Shown here: piece after piece, positions 54,736 through 62,857 of the stretch
How the letters are laid out: each line of letters starts with the position of its first letter
Numbering within the stretch: the stretch's first letter is position 1
NCBI RefSeq assembly: GCF_033242265.1
Contig: NZ_BTFW01000001.1
Coordinates: forward strand, 2,873,001 to 2,937,000
Origin: Novosphingobium sp. IK01
Lineage (GTDB): Bacteria > Pseudomonadota > Alphaproteobacteria > Sphingomonadales > Sphingomonadaceae
Direction of reading: 5' to 3'
DNA: 64,000 nucleotides
Notes under the pieces: generated by a model
Told to the model about the DNA's origin: nothing
Seen by the model: only the letters and a program-made list of their open reading frames with translations
Database searches by the model: none
Translations under genes and position numbers: made by a program

Positions 54736-56031
54736 TCAGTCCGGTCGGATGGTCTCCGTGTTTGGCCCCGTCCTGAGGCGCGTCTTGATGCGTGCGGTTT
54801 CGCGGGCCTGCCGCTTTTTCCACCAGATCAGGACACCGGTTACGCTCAGCATGGTGACACAGGCCCCGATGATCGTTACCAGAACCTGCCAGACCGATCC
54901 CCAGACGCGCGCCATGTGCAGCGCCACGATCCAGTCGGTCAGGCGATCAGCCAGATTGGCACGGGCGGCCGGGCGGGCGAGGCGCAGGACGCCCGTGCGA
55001 TCGTCGAAGGCGATCTGCGATCCGCCGCCTTCGTCGGGGATGTCGGCGCGCGTGGTGAAGCCATAGACATAGACGCCGCTGGCCGGCACGTGCCAGAGCC
55101 AGCGGGCGCCGGCGTGGGGCAGGGCATCCTCGTTCCGGGCCAGTTGCGCGCCGCGGGCGGCGGCCTGGGCAAAGGAGAGCGCGGGCATCGGGCGGGGCAG
55201 GACGGGGCGACTGGCGGCAAGGCTGGCCAGATCGGCGCGGCGGTCGCTCGCGCCCATCACGCCCATCACCGTGGTATAGACCGGGCGCAAGTTGAACGAG
55301 ACGCTCGACCAGGCGAAGACCAGCAGGGCGAGCCAGATCCACAGGCCGCCCGCGCGGTGGAGGTCGAAGGTCAGCTTGTGGCCGCTCGCGCGCCAGCGCA
55401 CCTGCCACGAGGGTTTCCAGCGCTTCCACCAGCCGGGCGGCGTATTGGTCCGGCGGACCGGGCGCGGGATTGGAACAGGCGGCTTTTTCAGGCGCACGGG
55501 CAGCGTGAGATAGAAGCCCACGAAACAGTCGAGCGTCCACACCAGCGCAGCCAGCCCCATCACCAGCCTGCCTGTCGGCCCGAGCAGCAGGGTATAGTGC
55601 AGCAGATAGAGGAAAGGCAGCAGGTTGACCTGCCCTTCGGTGATGTCGCCCCAGTGGCGATGGCCGAGTTCGCGCGTGGTGTAGGGATCGATGAAGAGTT
55701 CGTCCCACCCCTGTGCATGGGCCGGATCGCGCCAACTGACGCGCAGGCGCAGGCTGTGGCCCGGTTCGATCGTGAGCGGCAGGAAATCGGCGACCATGCC
55801 GGGGTGGCGGGTCAGAGCCAGCGCCCGCAGTTCGACGGGATCGTGCGCGCGTGCGCCGGGCACGGGTGGCGCGGCCAGCAGCAGGCCCGGCGCACTCCAG
55901 GCTTCCAGTTCGTCTTCCCAGGCCAGCGCCATGCCGGTCAGCCCGGCGATGGCCAGGAACAGCGCAAGGCTCAGGCCCGCCCAGCGATGGACGAGCACCC
56001 AGACCTTTCGCGATGGCAGCGCGCGCGTCAT
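54736..56031 (-). CDS. PepSY-associated membrane protein, iron-uptake type
   Basis: A 431-residue membrane protein with an N-terminal helix (VLVHRWAGLSLALFLAIAGLTG, about 10-31), a periplasmic PepSY region (about 35-150), two central helices (about 150-195) and further helices, ending in a basic tail (WWKKRQAR). Conserved histidines (HRW, LLHYTLLL, FDLHRAGG, ALHMARVW) could bind haem, as in proteins of the FoxB/PiuB-like siderophore-reduction family. It starts 8 bp after the siderophore receptor on the same strand and probably releases iron from the internalised ferri-siderophore. Confidence 0.85.
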   Translation of the reverse strand: MTRALPSRKVWVLVHRWAGLSLALFLAIAGLTGMALAWEDELEAWSAPGLLLAAPPVPGARAHDPVELRALALTRHPGMVADFLPLTIEPGHSLRLRVSWRDPAHAQGWDELFIDPYTTRELGHRHWGDITEGQVNLLPFLYLLHYTLLLGPTGRLVMGLAALVWTLDCFVGFYLTLPVRLKKPPVPIPRPVRRTNTPPGWWKRWKPSWQVRWRASGHKLTFDLHRAGGLWIWLALLVFAWSSVSFNLRPVYTTVMGVMGASDRRADLASLAASRPVLPRPMPALSFAQAAARGAQLARNEDALPHAGARWLWHVPASGVYVYGFTTRADIPDEGGGSQIAFDDRTGVLRLARPAARANLADRLTDWIVALHMARVWGSVWQVLVTIIGACVTMLSVTGVLIWWKKRQARETARIKTRLRTGPNTETIRPD

Positions 56032-56039
56032 TGCCGTGC

Positions 56040-58256
56040 TCACCAGCGGAAGCTGATGGTGCCCTGGATCGTGCGGCGCTGGCCATACCAGCACCACGCG
56101 CTGTAGGCCGGATAGAGATAGCAGCTGGTCAGGTACTTCTTGTTGAACAGGTTGGTGACGTTGAGCGCAAGGTTTAGGCCTTGCAGGCGCGGATCGAGGT
56201 TGGCCAGATCGTAGTGGGCCATGGCGTCGATGAGGGTGTAGGACGGGGTGTAGTACTGGCGATAGGCATTGCCGGTCAGCGTCTGGTCGAAGACCCCGCC
56301 ATAGACCCCGTCGACATGGCGCAGGCCCGCGCCCAGATTCAGGCCCTTGAGCGGGCCGCTGCGCGCCGTCCAGTCGAGGTTGACCGCCAGATTGCCGTCG
56401 CCCGCGCCGATCAGGCCGCCGCCGACATAGCGCGCGTCATCGTCGGCCACGTCGCGCACGCGCTGGTGGCTGTAGGCCGCGCGCAGGGCAAAGCCATAGG
56501 GCAGCGGGGCCCTGGCTTCGATCTCGAAGCCTTCGGAGCGATACTTGCCGCTTTGCGAAGAGAGGAAGGTGACCGGATTGGTGGTGACGACGCCGGTCTG
56601 CTCGATGTGGAACCAGGCCGCAGTGACGAGGATCGCGGAGCCATTGGGCTGGAACTTGGCGCCGACTTCGACCTGCTTGCCCAGCGAGGGGCGGGCAAGG
56701 CCCCCGGTGGCGAGTCTGGCACTTTGCGGCTCGAACGAGGTGGCATAGCTGACATAGGGCGCGAGGCCGAAGGAGGTCTTGTAGAGCAGGCCCGCGCGCC
56801 CGGTGAACTTGCGGTCGGTCTGGCTGTCGGTGCCGCTGCGGATGCTGGCCCAGTCGTGACGGCCCGAGAGCATCAGGCGCAGGCCGCCCCAGCTCATCGT
56901 GTCCTGGGCATAGATGCCGGTCTGGTGCTGGCGGATGTTGTAAGTGGTGACGTCGGCATAGGCGCCGGGGGTGTAGCCGGGCACGGTGTAGGGCGAGGTG
57001 GGCGCCTGCTGGGTGCCATAGACCGGATCATAGGCATTGATCGGCTGCGCGGTGCCGAAGGCGGCGGCCTCGAACGAGTGGGCGGTCTGGTAATCGACGC
57101 CGACGAGCAACGCGTGCCGGACCGGGCCGGTTGTGAACGTGCCCGAAAGCTGGTGGTCGAAGGTCCAGTTGTCGAGGGTTTCGTGGGTGGCGTAGCTGGC
57201 GCGGGCAAATTGCGCCATGGCCGCATCGGCCGGAACGCCGGTTTCATAGATCGCGCCCAGATCGGTATCGACATGCTGGTAGCGGCCACTGGCCCGGAAA
57301 TGCCAGCTGGCGCCGAAATCGTGGGTCAGGATGTAGGTTCCCGCTTCCTGATTGCGGCGGAAATAGTTGCTCGGTTCGCCATCGGCATAGCGGGTGTCGA
57401 TCTTGCCGTTGGGGTTGTCGAACAGCGTGCCATAGCCGGGCGCGCCGCTGTAGTTGCCGTTCTTGGGATCGTGCGACCATGCGCCGAGCACGGTCAGGGT
57501 GGTGGCCGGGTCGATTTTGAAGGTGACCGCGCCGCTGAGCGTCTGGCGTGCGCGGCTGCCGTAATATTGCTGGGTATCGGCGCCGTTGGCGCTGCCATAG
57601 AGGCGCACGCTGACCGCATCGGACAGCTTGCCGCCGACATCGGCATCGACGCGATAGAGGTTGTAGGACCCATACGTGGCCGAAGCCGCGCCATAGAACG
57701 CCTCGTCGAGCGGGAGCTTGCTGCTCATCGCCACGAGACCGCCGGGGCTCGACTGGCCATAGAGCGCGGAGGCGGGCCCCTTGACCACCTCGATGGAATC
57801 GAGGCGCGACATGTCGACTTGCGGCGAGGCATAGCCCGAGGCGCTGGCGAATTGCTTCAGCCCGTCGAGATAGACCGGCGCATCGAAGCCGCGCAGCTTG
57901 AACTGGTCGTAGACTTCGGCGCTGGCCCCGCGCGTTTCGGGGGTGATCCCGGCGACATAACGCAAAGACTGGTTGAGATTGGCAAGGCCCAGCCGGGCAA
58001 TGTCGTCGGCGGTGACCACGCTGATCGATTGCGGGGTTTCGGCGATGGGGAGGGGAGACTTGGTAGCGGCGAGCGATTCCATGTCATCGTGAAGCCCGCG
58101 CACGACGATCTGGCCTTCACTGTCGCCCGAGGCGCTTTCGGGGCTGGCTGCATCGGAGGATTCTGCGGCGCGCGCAGGAGCGCCGAGCGCCAGCAGCGAG
58201 GCCGACAGCATCAGGCCGGCGCCAATTTTCCCGAAACCCCTCAAACGAGCGTGCAT
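56040..58256 (-). CDS. TonB-dependent siderophore receptor
   Basis: A 738-residue outer-membrane receptor. ATG at 58256 has AAGGA 7 nt upstream and yields a signal peptide (LMLSASLLALGAPARA). The TonB box region is EGQIVVRG (about 48-55). The plug domain has the siderophore-receptor pattern PLPIAETPQSISVV (about 70-83), DQFKLRGFDAPVYLDGL and VEVVKGPASALYGQSSPGG (about 155-175). The 22-strand barrel ends in ...TISFRW with aromatic C-terminus. A Fur-like box precedes it at 58356, so it is iron-repressed. The siderophore is unknown. Confidence 0.93.
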   Translation of the reverse strand: MHARLRGFGKIGAGLMLSASLLALGAPARAAESSDAASPESASGDSEGQIVVRGLHDDMESLAATKSPLPIAETPQSISVVTADDIARLGLANLNQSLRYVAGITPETRGASAEVYDQFKLRGFDAPVYLDGLKQFASASGYASPQVDMSRLDSIEVVKGPASALYGQSSPGGLVAMSSKLPLDEAFYGAASATYGSYNLYRVDADVGGKLSDAVSVRLYGSANGADTQQYYGSRARQTLSGAVTFKIDPATTLTVLGAWSHDPKNGNYSGAPGYGTLFDNPNGKIDTRYADGEPSNYFRRNQEAGTYILTHDFGASWHFRASGRYQHVDTDLGAIYETGVPADAAMAQFARASYATHETLDNWTFDHQLSGTFTTGPVRHALLVGVDYQTAHSFEAAAFGTAQPINAYDPVYGTQQAPTSPYTVPGYTPGAYADVTTYNIRQHQTGIYAQDTMSWGGLRLMLSGRHDWASIRSGTDSQTDRKFTGRAGLLYKTSFGLAPYVSYATSFEPQSARLATGGLARPSLGKQVEVGAKFQPNGSAILVTAAWFHIEQTGVVTTNPVTFLSSQSGKYRSEGFEIEARAPLPYGFALRAAYSHQRVRDVADDDARYVGGGLIGAGDGNLAVNLDWTARSGPLKGLNLGAGLRHVDGVYGGVFDQTLTGNAYRQYYTPSYTLIDAMAHYDLANLDPRLQGLNLALNVTNLFNKKYLTSCYLYPAYSAWCWYGQRRTIQGTISFRW

Positions 58257-58355
58257 GATCTTGTCCTTGTCAACCTTGTCCCGTTGCATCGCGCCTTGAT
58301 CCGCGATGAAGGGATGCCGTGGCGGTGCCCGGCTGCCTGAATGGCAGGTCAACTA

Positions 58356-58527: not shown

Positions 58528-59994
58528 CTATTGCAGCCTGAGCGCGCCTTCGTCGGCGGTCGCGGCGGCCAGTTCCGCATGGGCGGCAGCGATGCGCGCG
58601 CGGGCCTCGATCAGCTTGACTTCGGCGTCGGTGGAGGCTTCCTCGCGCTGGTTGACGAGGAAGAAGTCGCTCGATCCCAGCTCGAAGCGGCGGCGCTCGG
58701 CCTGCGCCAGTTTCCCGGCAAGGTCGCGCTGGCGCAGGGTCGTGTCGACGAGCTTGCGCGCGGTTTCGACCTCGATGCCGATGCCCGCCACTTCGGCGCG
58801 GATCTTTTCGCCGAGATAGCGCTGCTTGATCGAAAGCTCGTCGAGCTTGGCTTGCGTTTCGGCGAGCTTGCCCCTGGCCTTGCGGTTTTGCAGCGGGATC
58901 TTGAGGCTGATGCCCATGATCACTTCGGTGGCGGTGCGGCTGTGGCCGCCCAGTCCCTCGGGGCCGATGTCCTTGGCGATTTCGCCCTTGAGGTCGAGCT
59001 TGGGGCGCAATTCGTTGCGGGCGAGCGCCAGCTTGATCCCGGCCTGATCGATTTCTTCCATCAGGATGCCGAAATCGGGCCGGTTCTCGATGGTGAACAC
59101 CGGGTCGAGGCGCAGGCCGGAAAAGGCGCTGGCATCGGGGGGGAGGCGGCTGGCATCGACGATCACCGGCGCGCCCTGATCGTCGCGGAAGTAGAGCGAG
59201 AGCTTGTTGGCCGCGTCGAGGAAGTCCTGACGGGCAGCGAGCACGAGCGCCTCGCGCTTGACCATGTTGGCTTCGTTTTCGGTCAGCAGGATGTCGGGCT
59301 TGGCGCCCAGTACGACCTGACGGCCGATGCCCCGGCCCCGCCGGGCGGCCAGATCGTAGAGCGCCTGATAGGCCTTGAGTTTCAGCCCCGTGGCGACCCA
59401 TTTCTGGTAGGCCTGCGTGGCGCGGGCCTGAACGCCGATGCTGGTGGCGCGGGCTTCGAAGCGGGCGATGTCGATGTCGTTGGCGGCCATGCTGCGCCCG
59501 GCGCGGCGGGCGTCGATCAGGCGGTCGCGCATCAGCGAATAGAGTACGCCGACTTTGAATTCACCCGCCTCGTTGGTGTAGGCCTTGTCCTCGTAGACCG
59601 GAAACGCGCCGCGCGAATTGCGGTACTGGCCGTAGAAATGGCCGCCGTTGTTGGCAAACGGGGTGTCGGCAAGGCCGGTGACCTCGGTGCCGTCGTAATA
59701 GCCTGCTACGCGGCTGCGGGCATCGACTGAAAACACGGTGTCGAAGGCGCCGTCGGCGGTCAGCGAGCGCCCTTCGGCCTGCCGGGTGCGGGCCAGCGCG
59801 GCGATGATGTCGGGCGTGGCGCGGGCCGAAGAGGCCAGCACTTCGTCGAGCAGGAGCGGCGTGGCGCTCTGGCCGGGGGTGGCCACGAGTTCGCCACCGG
59901 GCAGGACAGCCGGGATGGTTTCGGCCTGCGCGGGCGCAAGGCAGAGGCTCGCGGACAGCGCCAGCAGGGGGAGGAAGCGGGCTGGAAGCATCAT
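58528..59994 (-). CDS. TolC-family outer-membrane protein of the pseudo-ABC export operon
   Basis: A 488-residue outer-membrane efflux duct. Signal peptide MMLPARFLPLLALSASLCLAPAQA; long helical repeats follow, with the second half in DFGILMEEIDQAGIKLALARNELRPKLDLKG. The start overlaps the HlyD stop by one base (TGATG), so all three genes of the operon are coupled. It would connect the HlyD-like adaptor to the exterior. The substrate is unknown. Confidence 0.9.
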   Translation of the reverse strand: MMLPARFLPLLALSASLCLAPAQAETIPAVLPGGELVATPGQSATPLLLDEVLASSARATPDIIAALARTRQAEGRSLTADGAFDTVFSVDARSRVAGYYDGTEVTGLADTPFANNGGHFYGQYRNSRGAFPVYEDKAYTNEAGEFKVGVLYSLMRDRLIDARRAGRSMAANDIDIARFEARATSIGVQARATQAYQKWVATGLKLKAYQALYDLAARRGRGIGRQVVLGAKPDILLTENEANMVKREALVLAARQDFLDAANKLSLYFRDDQGAPVIVDASRLPPDASAFSGLRLDPVFTIENRPDFGILMEEIDQAGIKLALARNELRPKLDLKGEIAKDIGPEGLGGHSRTATEVIMGISLKIPLQNRKARGKLAETQAKLDELSIKQRYLGEKIRAEVAGIGIEVETARKLVDTTLRQRDLAGKLAQAERRRFELGSSDFFLVNQREEASTDAEVKLIEARARIAAAHAELAAATADEGALRLQ

Positions 59995-61115
59995 CACTTC
60001 TTCTTCTCGCCCGTGCCTGCGCCCTTGCTGCCGCCATCGGCCTTGGCGCCGCCCGCCTTCTGGTCTTGCCCGTAGCCGACTTTTTCCTGCCCGAAGTTGA
60101 GCGGGAAGTCGTTGAGCTGGCGCCAGAGTTCGTAGCCGACCGTCACCGTGTCGCCCTGAATCCAGCCCAGCACCTTGCCGCCCTGACGCACGAAGCGCAG
60201 GTCGGGCCACGGGGTCTTGCCCGGCGCGGGTTCGACCAGCACGCGGAACAGGCCGTCGCCGCGCGGGGTCGGATCGACCGCGCGCACGCGGCCATCATAG
60301 ATCCCCACCGCGAACGAGGGCCAGCCGCTGAACTGGATCGCCGGGAAGCCTTCGAATTCGAGGCGGACGGCGCGTCCGGCCTCGACCAGCGGGATGTCGC
60401 GGCCATCGACATAGAGTTCGACCGCGCGCTCGACATGTTCGGGCGCAATCGTGGCCAGTACGGTGCCCGACCCAATCAGCGCGCCCCCCGAGGCGGCGTT
60501 GAGGTTCTGCACGCGACCGTCACGCGGCGCGCGGACGAGCTGGGCGGAACTCTGCGCGAGCTTGACCTTGATCTGCTGGAGCTTGGCACGCGATTCGGCA
60601 AGCTTGGCCCCCGCATCGGCGACCTTGATCAGCGTCTGTTCGTAGTCGCGGCGGGCGGCCAGCCCCTCGCGATAGAGTTGCAGGGTGCGCGCCACGTCGA
60701 TCGCGGCGGTCGAGCGGGCCTGTTCGACGGCGGCGATCTGGGCCTCGACTTGCGCCTTTTCACCCGCCAGCCGGTCGAGCAGGTCGGGGTCGACATCGAC
60801 CACGCGGACGATGGGATCGCCCTTTTTGACGAAATCGCCATCCTGCACGTAAAATTCCTCGACGCGCCCGCTCACCAGCGAGGAGACCTGCCGGGCGCGG
60901 TCGTCGGCGTTGAGGGTTGTCACTTGCCCTCGCCCTTCGGCGGTCTGGAGCCAGGGCACGAACAGGATCGCGATGGCCAGCGCGATTCCCAGCACGATCA
61001 GCCAGGCGACCGTCCTGATGATGCGCGGCGGACGGAGCCGGGCGAGTGAGGGGAAGTGCGCCATCTGCGCGGCTTCGAGCGGCATTTCGGAGCTCGTGCT
61101 GTTCTGGCCGGTCAT
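59994..61115 (-). CDS. HlyD-family adaptor (membrane fusion protein)
   Basis: A 373-residue adaptor with one N-terminal membrane helix (VAWLIVLGIALAIAILFVP, about 37-56), a lipoyl/barrel-sandwich domain flanking a coiled-coil hairpin (about 95-190, EKAQVEAQIAAVEQARSTAAI... LAESRAKLQQIKVKLAQ), and a beta-barrel domain. The C-terminal 20 residues are lysine/glycine-rich (GGAKADGGSKGAGTGEKKK). ATG at 61115 overlaps the ABC gene stop by four bases (ATGA). Confidence 0.92.
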   Translation of the reverse strand: MTGQNSTSSEMPLEAAQMAHFPSLARLRPPRIIRTVAWLIVLGIALAIAILFVPWLQTAEGRGQVTTLNADDRARQVSSLVSGRVEEFYVQDGDFVKKGDPIVRVVDVDPDLLDRLAGEKAQVEAQIAAVEQARSTAAIDVARTLQLYREGLAARRDYEQTLIKVADAGAKLAESRAKLQQIKVKLAQSSAQLVRAPRDGRVQNLNAASGGALIGSGTVLATIAPEHVERAVELYVDGRDIPLVEAGRAVRLEFEGFPAIQFSGWPSFAVGIYDGRVRAVDPTPRGDGLFRVLVEPAPGKTPWPDLRFVRQGGKVLGWIQGDTVTVGYELWRQLNDFPLNFGQEKVGYGQDQKAGGAKADGGSKGAGTGEKKK

Positions 61116-62857
61116 GCGCGGCGCTCCCGTTCGGCGAGGAAGCGGGCGAGATCGGCCCGGCTGGTGAAGCGGTGCTGGGCGTGTCTGCCCAGCCAGTACC
61201 AGGCGTCGGGGCCCTTTCCGCCGTCGGCGTGGCCATCGGTATCGAGGGCTTCGGGGCGCCCGGTGCTGAGCAGGACGGTCGTTCCCATGGCCCGGAATTC
61301 GTCCAGCGTGGCCCGGAGCGCGGCGATGGGCATCATGTCGTAGAGCGGCGAAAGCAGCAGGACATGGGGCCGCGCGAGCACGGCATTGGCAAGCTTGAGC
61401 TGCATGACCTCGACAATCGAAAGGGGCGAGCCGGAGGCGGCAAGGCGGGTGTCGAGCCCGGTGGGCAGGCTGGCAATGCGGCTGCCCAGCCCGACCAGAT
61501 CGAGCGCCTGCATGATCCGCACGCTGTCCGGGGTGCCGCCGCAGGCCAGGGCGAGGAATTCGCGGATGGTGATGTCGACGATGGTCGGGCGGCTGAGCAC
61601 GGTGACCGCCGAGCGCAGCAGGTAGGAATCGAGGCTGCCCAGTTCGCTGCCGCCGATCGAGACGATCCCGGCATGGGGTGTGTGATGGCGCTTGAGCAGC
61701 AGGGCGACCTCGTTCTCGATGCCCGGTGCTGCGGCAAAGACGATCTGTTCGCCGCTGGCGATCTCGAAGTCGAGGCGGGCGAGACCGATCCTGTTCTCGC
61801 CGATCTCGACCTCGCGGAAGCGCACCGCGCCGTCGGCCGGGGCCTGCCCGCTGCCGCCGCTGCGTTCCTGCGGGATCGCGAAGACTTGCGACAGTTCCTC
61901 GGCGCTGGCCACCAGATCGTAGAACACGTCGAGGTAGGAGCCGAGCTGGTAGATCCCGTAGAACACGCCCGACAGGATCAGCTCGGCGGCGACCAGCTGG
62001 CCGATCGACAGCTCGCCCGCCAGAATGAGATTGCCCCCCAGCGCCAGCAGCGCGGAGGCGGCAAAGGCATAGACGAGGAAATAGGCGAGCGTCTGGGCAA
62101 AGCTGTAGCGGAAGAAGCAGCGATGCGCGCGGATATAGTCGGCGGTCACCGCTTCGGAGCGGTCCATCGCAAAGTCGAAGTGGCGGGCCGACTTGTAGAA
62201 GCCGTTGGAGCCGCCCAGACTTTCCAGCCACTGCGCGGCATTGTGCTTGGCATGGCTGACCCCGACCGAGCCGGCAATCGCCCCCCGGCGCCAGATCAGC
62301 CAGATCGCCAGGCACGCGAGCACGAGGATCAGGTTGAAGGCGAGGAAGAACGGGTGGTAGAAACTCGTCACCATCAGCCCCACCGCGCCTTGCAGCACGA
62401 TGGTAAAGGCGCCGATCACCAGACTGGGCACCGATTTCTGGATGATCGCGGTGTCGAAATAGCGGTTGAACAAGCTGCTGCGGCTTTCGTCCACGAAGAA
62501 CGGGTTCTGGGCATGGACCGTGCGCACGGTGATCTCGGCCACGACGCGGGCGAACAGGCGCCGCTCGAACAGGGCAAGGATATAGAGCCGCATCGAACTG
62601 AGCCCGGCCACCACCAGCAGCAGTGCCAGCAGAACCCCCGAGAGGATCCACAAGGGCGCCACCAGCGCGGTGCGCGCCACCGAATTGATCAGCAGTTGCA
62701 CCGAGATGGGCGTGGCCAGCGAGAGCAGGCTGATCGCCATCGAATAGACGATGCACAAGTTGATATAGGCCCGGTCAGGCCCGACGATCTCCCTCAGCCA
62801 GGCGACCGCCTGACGCAGGCCGATGTTCTCACTCGCCACGGCGCGCCCCTGTTTCAA
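61112..62857 (-). CDS. ABC exporter subunit with a catalytically dead ATPase domain
   Basis: A 581-residue type I ABC exporter half-transporter: six membrane helices (about 30-305) then a nucleotide-binding domain from about 340. All ATPase motifs are lost: Walker A reads AAPGIENEV (no Gly-Lys-Ser/Thr, about 376-384), the signature LSGGQ reads ASGSPLS (about 474-480), Walker B reads VLLLSPLYD (no Asp-Glu, about 499-507), and the H-loop His is replaced in LLSTGRP. The surrounding residues stay alignable (TIREFLALA; LPTGLDTRL; LKLANAVLARPHVLLLS), so this is degeneration, not a frameshift. It is the first gene of the ABC-HlyD-TolC operon. It may need an ATPase partner elsewhere or be a non-hydrolysing scaffold. 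Confidence 0.88.
   Translation of the reverse strand: MKQGRAVASENIGLRQAVAWLREIVGPDRAYINLCIVYSMAISLLSLATPISVQLLINSVARTALVAPLWILSGVLLALLLVVAGLSSMRLYILALFERRLFARVVAEITVRTVHAQNPFFVDESRSSLFNRYFDTAIIQKSVPSLVIGAFTIVLQGAVGLMVTSFYHPFFLAFNLILVLACLAIWLIWRRGAIAGSVGVSHAKHNAAQWLESLGGSNGFYKSARHFDFAMDRSEAVTADYIRAHRCFFRYSFAQTLAYFLVYAFAASALLALGGNLILAGELSIGQLVAAELILSGVFYGIYQLGSYLDVFYDLVASAEELSQVFAIPQERSGGSGQAPADGAVRFREVEIGENRIGLARLDFEIASGEQIVFAAAPGIENEVALLLKRHHTPHAGIVSIGGSELGSLDSYLLRSAVTVLSRPTIVDITIREFLALACGGTPDSVRIMQALDLVGLGSRIASLPTGLDTRLAASGSPLSIVEVMQLKLANAVLARPHVLLLSPLYDMMPIAALRATLDEFRAMGTTVLLSTGRPEALDTDGHADGGKGPDAWYWLGRHAQHRFTSRADLARFLAERERRA

Follow-up and report, generated by a model that had tools for sequence, protein, structure and literature searches.

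A conserved family of tripartite exporter operons whose ABC subunit has lost its catalytic ATPase residues

How can a tripartite exporter work if the ATPase at its inner-membrane end has lost its catalytic residues? The question is posed by an operon in a 64,000-nucleotide stretch of Novosphingobium sp. IK01 (contig NZ_BTFW01000001.1, positions 2,873,001 to 2,937,000; hereafter the window), in which the gene for an ATP-binding cassette (ABC) exporter subunit, here called pABC, is followed by genes for a HlyD-type adaptor and a TolC-type duct. ABC exporters, and HlyB-type tripartite machines especially, are taken to be ATP-driven. We regard it as nearly certain that pABC is a conserved protein without the catalytic residues, and as quite likely that it is truly unable to hydrolyse ATP; the latter is held less firmly because motif loss is not a measurement. 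Judged from sequence, the protein probably works without the usual ATP consumption. The account that we place first, tentatively and somewhat short of even confidence, is a gradient-driven tripartite exporter in which ATP hydrolysis by pABC's own nucleotide-binding domain (NBD) is no longer used. The genes, domains and altered sites are as follows.

61112..62836, minus strand: pABC, ABC-exporter subunit with an ATPase-dead NBD (open reading frame, start context, homologues, predicted fold)
61850..62836, minus strand: transmembrane domain (TMD), six long helices, residues ~14-326, the more conserved half of pABC (AlphaFold2 helices, invariant columns)
61115..61849, minus strand: degenerate NBD from about residue 337, catalytic motifs lost (alignment, AlphaFold2 fold)
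61715..61717, minus strand: codon of E381, site of the Walker A lysine, K>E (alignment)
61346..61351, minus strand: codons of S503 (Walker B D>S) and P504 (catalytic E>P) (alignment)
61259..61261, minus strand: codon of G533, site of the H-loop histidine, H>G (alignment)
59994..61115, minus strand: HlyD-type periplasmic adaptor (Pfam HlyD_3, 57.1 bits)
58528..59994, minus strand: TolC-type outer membrane duct (Pfam OEP, 72.6 bits)

Eight canonical ATPase sites were scored by alignment with 30 rows of ordinary exporters, and seven of them are lost in the window protein. Besides the changes listed above, N382 occupies the Walker A Ser/Thr site and R423 that of the Q-loop glutamine. An earlier sequence-only reading of this locus had described Walker A without lysine and Ser/Thr, Walker B without aspartate and catalytic glutamate, and an absent H-loop histidine, all of which is borne out by the alignment. 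Its statement that the LSGGQ signature is gone goes too far: the motif is degenerate (LSIVE, with the second glycine replaced by V482), and the leucine and the serine (S480) survive. The ordinary set comprised the best-scoring locus from 25 of 150 Pseudomonadota genomes together with five rows from the window genome, among which one CydC-like protein appears twice; all eight sites are kept in 28 of its 29 complete rows.

The divergence of pABC is also apparent in model searches. No Pfam family was matched in pABC at E ≤ 1, and no NCBIfam ABC model for type I secretion reached its cut-off, the best being type_I_sec_HlyB (95.7 bits against 725.55), followed by LssB (90.7 against 693.1) and PrtD (36.6 against 510.15). 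The AlphaFold2 model nevertheless shows the whole fold of a type IV ABC exporter, a six-helix TMD fused to an ABC-fold NBD, in agreement with the earlier description of the NBD as full-length and recognisable. The per-residue confidence (pLDDT) of the predicted NBD is mostly 94-98 and is lower at 351-360 and 531-550. The protein thus has the predicted architecture of a type IV exporter and lacks the marks of an ATP-driven transporter in Walker A, in Walker B with its glutamate, in the Q-loop and H-loop, and in LSGGQ.

The three genes overlap in the order ABC, HlyD, TolC between 62857 and 58528. The reading frame of pABC is intact from a TTG at 62857 to 61112 (581 codons); GTG 62836 is the likelier start, giving 574 amino acids, because AGGGG lies upstream and four of five compared relatives begin at about this point. 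Stop and start codons overlap in ATGA (61112-61115) between pABC and HlyD and in TGATG (59992-59996) between HlyD and TolC. Given these overlaps, translational coupling, as claimed in the earlier reading, is likely. In NCBIfam the HlyD-type gene scored 81.5 bits with RND_mfp and 78.2 bits with type_I_hlyD, both under the cut-off. Promoter, terminator and Rfam scans returned nothing informative. A metagenome-assembled genome (MAG) named Novosphingobium capsulatum (locus L001) matches pABC at 100% over residues 1-581 and probably represents the same species as the window strain.

The losses are shared by the whole main group of relatives. Homologues with identities of about 33% to 79% were found, and those with names, on which the group names rest, are mostly Sphingomonadales, with some Kordiimonas and gammaproteobacterial MAGs; one member is SARO_RS19820 of Novosphingobium aromaticivorans DSM 12444. 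In searches that scored the best 4 to 13 candidates per genome, pABC was found with the window protein (E ≤ 1e-30) in 27 of 249 genomes at the level of the taxonomic family, 19 of 99 at that of the order and 3 of 289 at that of the class, where the family and order sets overlap and the window genome is counted in all three scans, and with profile A1 (E ≤ 1e-60) in 6 of 299 genomes of the phylum. The distribution is patchy, and 15 Sphingomonadales records carry the gene on plasmids. Members are well separated from other exporters: across 150 genomes, five members scored 619-760 bits with A1 against 119.5 bits for the best other match, which reaches 152 bits when its whole open reading frame is scored. 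The main-group alignment holds 300 rows, near-copies included, and 296 remain once four with gaps at the sites are set aside. Among these, the Walker A lysine is kept in 2, the Q-loop glutamine in 0, the Walker B aspartate in 2, the catalytic glutamate in 21, the H-loop histidine in 4 and the signature serine in 217. None of the eight sites survives in 58 rows, one in 150, two in 84 and three in 4, so that the conservation of the losses among homologues, which the earlier reading had proposed to check, extends to every one of the 296. Some genes of the family are named "ABC transporter ATP-binding protein" in public records, and this annotated function is probably wrong for them.

Selection was estimated from 113 of the 528 pairs of 33 coding sequences, those with synonymous divergence (dS) of 0.05 to 0.9 in both domains. 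The median ratio of nonsynonymous to synonymous change (dN/dS) is 0.16 for the membrane domain and 0.35 for the dead NBD, and in the closest pairs the NBD values lie between 0 and 0.12 (L003-L016, 0.017; L009-L010, 0.049; L030-L031, 0.117). By these ratios the dead NBD is under purifying selection, and it therefore still matters, less strictly than the membrane domain.

A decaying pseudogene or a sequence error would also explain lost motifs, and single broken copies do exist: pABC is split in G323, and a TAG lies inside the stretch matching pABC in G535. Yet the window frame is intact, the remaining genomes matched in two of the genome scans show no internal stops, dN/dS is low, and the losses are common to two phyla. 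We therefore give this explanation a negligible probability. Sequencing error was ruled out by the identical gene in the second assembly together with the losses shared by relatives, and a pseudogene by the family-wide losses and purifying selection; the earlier reading had named homologues with intact motifs as the sign of a recent pseudogene, and no such member occurs among the 296. The split copy in G323 (L033/L050; L117) probably became a pseudogene only recently; most other members of the family are intact.

A second, partly degenerate group was reached through a match on a Persicobacter plasmid (L109), which led to 120 proteins, the named ones all from Bacteroidota. With profile A1 these score 270-314 bits, and the relatives from Aureibacter and Riemerella score 231 and 197.5; named members are Persicobacter, Aureibacter and Riemerella, together with proteins named Fulvivirga, Catalinimonas and others. 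For the alignment of both degenerate groups, 427 sequences were added and six identical ones dropped. The Bacteroidota rows (n = 122) resemble pABC in the loss of the Walker B aspartate (kept in 1, Asn in 117), the catalytic glutamate (kept in 1, Asp in 118) and the H-loop histidine (kept in 0); they differ in keeping the Walker A lysine in 119 and the Q-loop glutamine in 66. In the Aureibacter relative the Walker A glycines and Ser/Thr are lost and the lysine is retained. The 120 proteins are also longer (706-765 amino acids), with an N-terminal extension. This extension spans about 150 residues in L109 and P0241-P0360; some sources label these relatives peptidase domain-containing, and in P0265 Pfam (E ≤ 0.001) finds only two ABC domains. 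The Riemerella "plasmid" stretch (L152:1-13593) carries the housekeeping genes rplU, murB, rsmI and fabG, so part of that record may be chromosomal.

The Bacteroidota relatives share the operon as well: Persicobacter shows ABC-HlyD-TolC, and in the Riemerella and Aureibacter records the annotation lists these three kinds of product one after another. In a TMD-only tree of 81 rows, built with a quick method and rooted on the ordinary exporters, the latter form one side of a branch with support of 100 in the Shimodaira-Hasegawa-like approximate likelihood ratio test (SH-aLRT), and the 23 Bacteroidota rows (SH-aLRT 99) and 28 main-group rows (96) form sister clades; several branches are long, and the program warns of possible false joining. 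The simplest history is a single loss of catalysis, followed in the main group by loss of the ATP-binding residues. The ordinary set included no Bacteroidota exporter with intact motifs, and a closer active relative may exist.

The membrane domain of the family is nearly fixed, and most invariant columns of pABC fall there rather than in the NBD. Two of these positions are located in the window as follows.

61982..61984, minus strand: codon of E292, helix TM6, invariant in the family rows, Asn in 18 of 30 ordinary rows (alignment)
62354..62356, minus strand: codon of H168, TM3-TM4 loop (alignment)

E292 is glutamate in 300/300 main-group and 122/122 Bacteroidota rows and in none of the 30 ordinary ones. 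K204 (299/299 and 122/122, against 0/30), H168 (299/299 and 121/122, against 2/30) and Q156 (292/299 and 122/122, against 0/30) follow the same pattern; Q54 is invariant in the family, yet it is also present in 18 of 30 ordinary exporter rows. From the modelled helices (TM1 14-63, TM3 126-165, TM6 285-326), Q54, Q156 and E292 would lie at about one depth, each 7-9 residues from the periplasmic helix end.

These residues suggest how such an exporter might be energised. In the mechanism that we propose, pABC in the inner membrane, the HlyD adaptor and the TolC duct would form one tripartite exporter that has dropped ATP hydrolysis by pABC's own NBD. Alternating access of the TMD would instead be powered by an ion gradient, most simply of protons, along a path through a periplasm-side polar layer of E292, Q54 and Q156 with H168 in the loop above, and the dead NBDs would persist as a dimerising or regulatory base. 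The cargo would be a small molecule and not a protein, a suggestion prompted by a LysR-type regulator being the only frequent neighbour of the operon. Both the ion gradient as energy source and the small molecule as substrate are inferred. Of the three explanations offered in the earlier reading for a dead ATPase, namely another energy source, a regulatory role or heterodimerisation, the first is thus ranked most likely and the last is disfavoured.

A precedent for a gradient-driven protein on an ABC-type membrane domain is provided by the SbmA/BacA transporters. These are described as having the TMD fold of type IV ABC transporters, driven by protons through membrane glutamates, and their proposed ancestors are full-length ABC transporters that lost the NBD; a ladder of six glutamates is reported for SbmA, whose coupling helices and NBD are lost, and these SbmA-like peptide transporters (SLiPTs) carry an extra helix TM0 and import peptides (PMC13316013). 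The likeness to pABC lies in an ABC-exporter-type TMD with conserved membrane acidic residue(s), ATP-independence being for pABC a presumption; pABC differs in retaining the NBD fold and in sitting in an operon with HlyD and TolC.

Several points weigh against a gradient-driven pABC. Loss of motifs does not strictly prove loss of activity. The family has a single invariant membrane glutamate, in TM6, and keeps its NBD, whereas SbmA has six ladder glutamates and neither NBD nor coupling helices. The polar layer is placed from helix boundaries only. E292 and the NBD losses may go back to one ancestor, in which case their association amounts to one event and the membrane residues give no independent support. 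Among the most divergent pairs, which are near saturation, dN/dS of the dead NBD climbs as high as 0.82. That the domain is kept under selection suggests a remaining function, perhaps the binding of nucleotide, and in the Bacteroidota relatives ATP binding is plausible because Walker A is kept there.

Under a different explanation the dead NBD would serve as a switch that takes up ATP or some other ligand by a non-standard mode of binding; export would then be ligand-gated or regulated, and either downhill or powered by binding alone. A confidently predicted NBD fold under purifying selection would fit such a switch, as would the near-invariant new residues that replace the motifs (R423 in 294 of 296 rows, P478, K488, D507) and the Walker A lysine of the Bacteroidota relatives. 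Since main-group NBDs retain at most three of the eight canonical sites, and the invariant columns concentrate in the TMD, we consider a ligand switch unlikely, if the strongest competitor of the gradient-driven exporter.

The genomic context of pABC was examined in 69 loci (a total that includes the window and L001, with some near-copies among the loci), in 65 of which the gene caller picked up pABC. ABC, HlyD and TolC genes are consecutive on one strand in 68 of 69, by translated homology to the window genes, and in L109 the third gene escapes a search with the window TolC yet groups with TolC proteins. This constancy would also suit a pABC that serves only as an inner-membrane anchor or scaffold for HlyD and TolC, energised by an unrelated transporter; non-ABC motors drive many tripartite systems. 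No transporter gene is constant among the clustered neighbours, however, and the strict conservation deep in the TMD exceeds the needs of an anchor, which makes the scaffold improbable.

Pairing with an active ABC half-transporter encoded elsewhere, as the earlier reading had suggested, appears similarly doubtful. Degenerate motifs are known from one half of the heterodimeric exporters TmrAB, TM287/288 and BmrCD, which keep one complete site and have their partner adjoining, the partner supplying what the degenerate half lacks, and chains of all three are among the structural matches of pABC. In contrast to them, pABC has nothing left with which to complete a site: it offers neither the Walker A, Walker B and H-loop set nor the signature, so that, from ABC biochemistry, a partner would complete neither composite site. 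The flanks were scanned for a partner on called genes and then in six frames (all open frames of at least 100 amino acids) with a family profile and an active-NBD profile, and the six-frame scan revealed no further exporter half in the flanking DNA retrieved for the 69 loci, which reached at most ~8-10 kb on either side. Apart from the family gene, the profiles picked up lone ABC ATPases in two loci (311 aa in L013, 313 aa in L150), the remaining part of the broken L117 copy, and frames of 982-1060 aa in L112, L122, L128, L131, L135 and L136, which we take from their sequence to be UvrA-like. Elsewhere in the window genome, other exporters were recognised (two MsbA-like, a PrtD-like with its own HlyD and OEP genes, a CydD-like and a CydC-like protein), all likely to have roles other than that of a pABC partner. 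PF00664 recognises four exporters in the window genome and not pABC itself, so another divergent exporter could have escaped. The 700-aa frame with the genome's top ABC_tran score was rejected as an exporter, being a TOBE_2-domain ATPase.

Among the neighbours, a LysR-type gene occurs within four genes of pABC in 28 of 65 loci, although this cluster is broad (joined at E 1e-8) and includes unrelated LysR genes, such as one near L001. In most Sphingomonas loci it lies directly upstream of pABC; the gene at L012:6890-7912 and its counterparts in other Sphingomonas loci look OxyR-like by eye, and Pfam confirms LysR domains only. Beyond LysR-type genes, neighbour-gene clustering revealed no widely recurring neighbour. 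TonB-receptor-like genes make up 11 of 325 near and 4 of 378 farther genes, near-copies included, which is too weak as a clue. In the window itself, the operon is followed, on its own strand, by genes for a TonB-dependent receptor and a PepSY-associated membrane protein (54736-58352), whose clusters are also represented near pABC in L006 and L115. On Sphingobium plasmid pHAL16, the pABC operon is immediately preceded by a DabA gene (L110:1362-3911; Pfam DabA, 731 bits), and genes for a LysR regulator and a carbonic anhydrase are close by, an arrangement seen in this locus alone; DabA is associated with inorganic carbon transport.

The operon resembles type I secretion (HlyB-HlyD-TolC) in its three components. 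It differs in that pABC is without working ATPase motifs and is shorter than HlyB, of which the aligned part begins at residue 138; no gene for a secreted protein was recognised beside pABC, in loci for which no substrate scan was made. The earlier reading knew of no characterised system of this make-up, and likewise no described counterpart of an ATPase-dead tripartite family was found in the open-access literature, most subscription journals lying outside that coverage. Neither the fold nor the operon is new, but an ATPase-dead tripartite family appears, judging by these searches, to be undescribed. Three points go beyond the earlier reading: the whole family shares the losses, its sister group in Bacteroidota stands half way, and most of the conserved residues lie in the membrane domain.

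It is possible, and we put it forward cautiously, that the family represents a second route, besides SbmA/BacA, to gradient-driven secondary transport, in which the ATPase fell silent without being discarded, inside a complete export machine spanning inner to outer membrane, and of which stages survive, with Walker A kept in Bacteroidota and lost in Proteobacteria. Because members in two phyla have retained the machine without its catalytic residues, a change of energy source in ABC transporters becomes testable, and roles of the NBD other than ATP hydrolysis can be tested in the same proteins.

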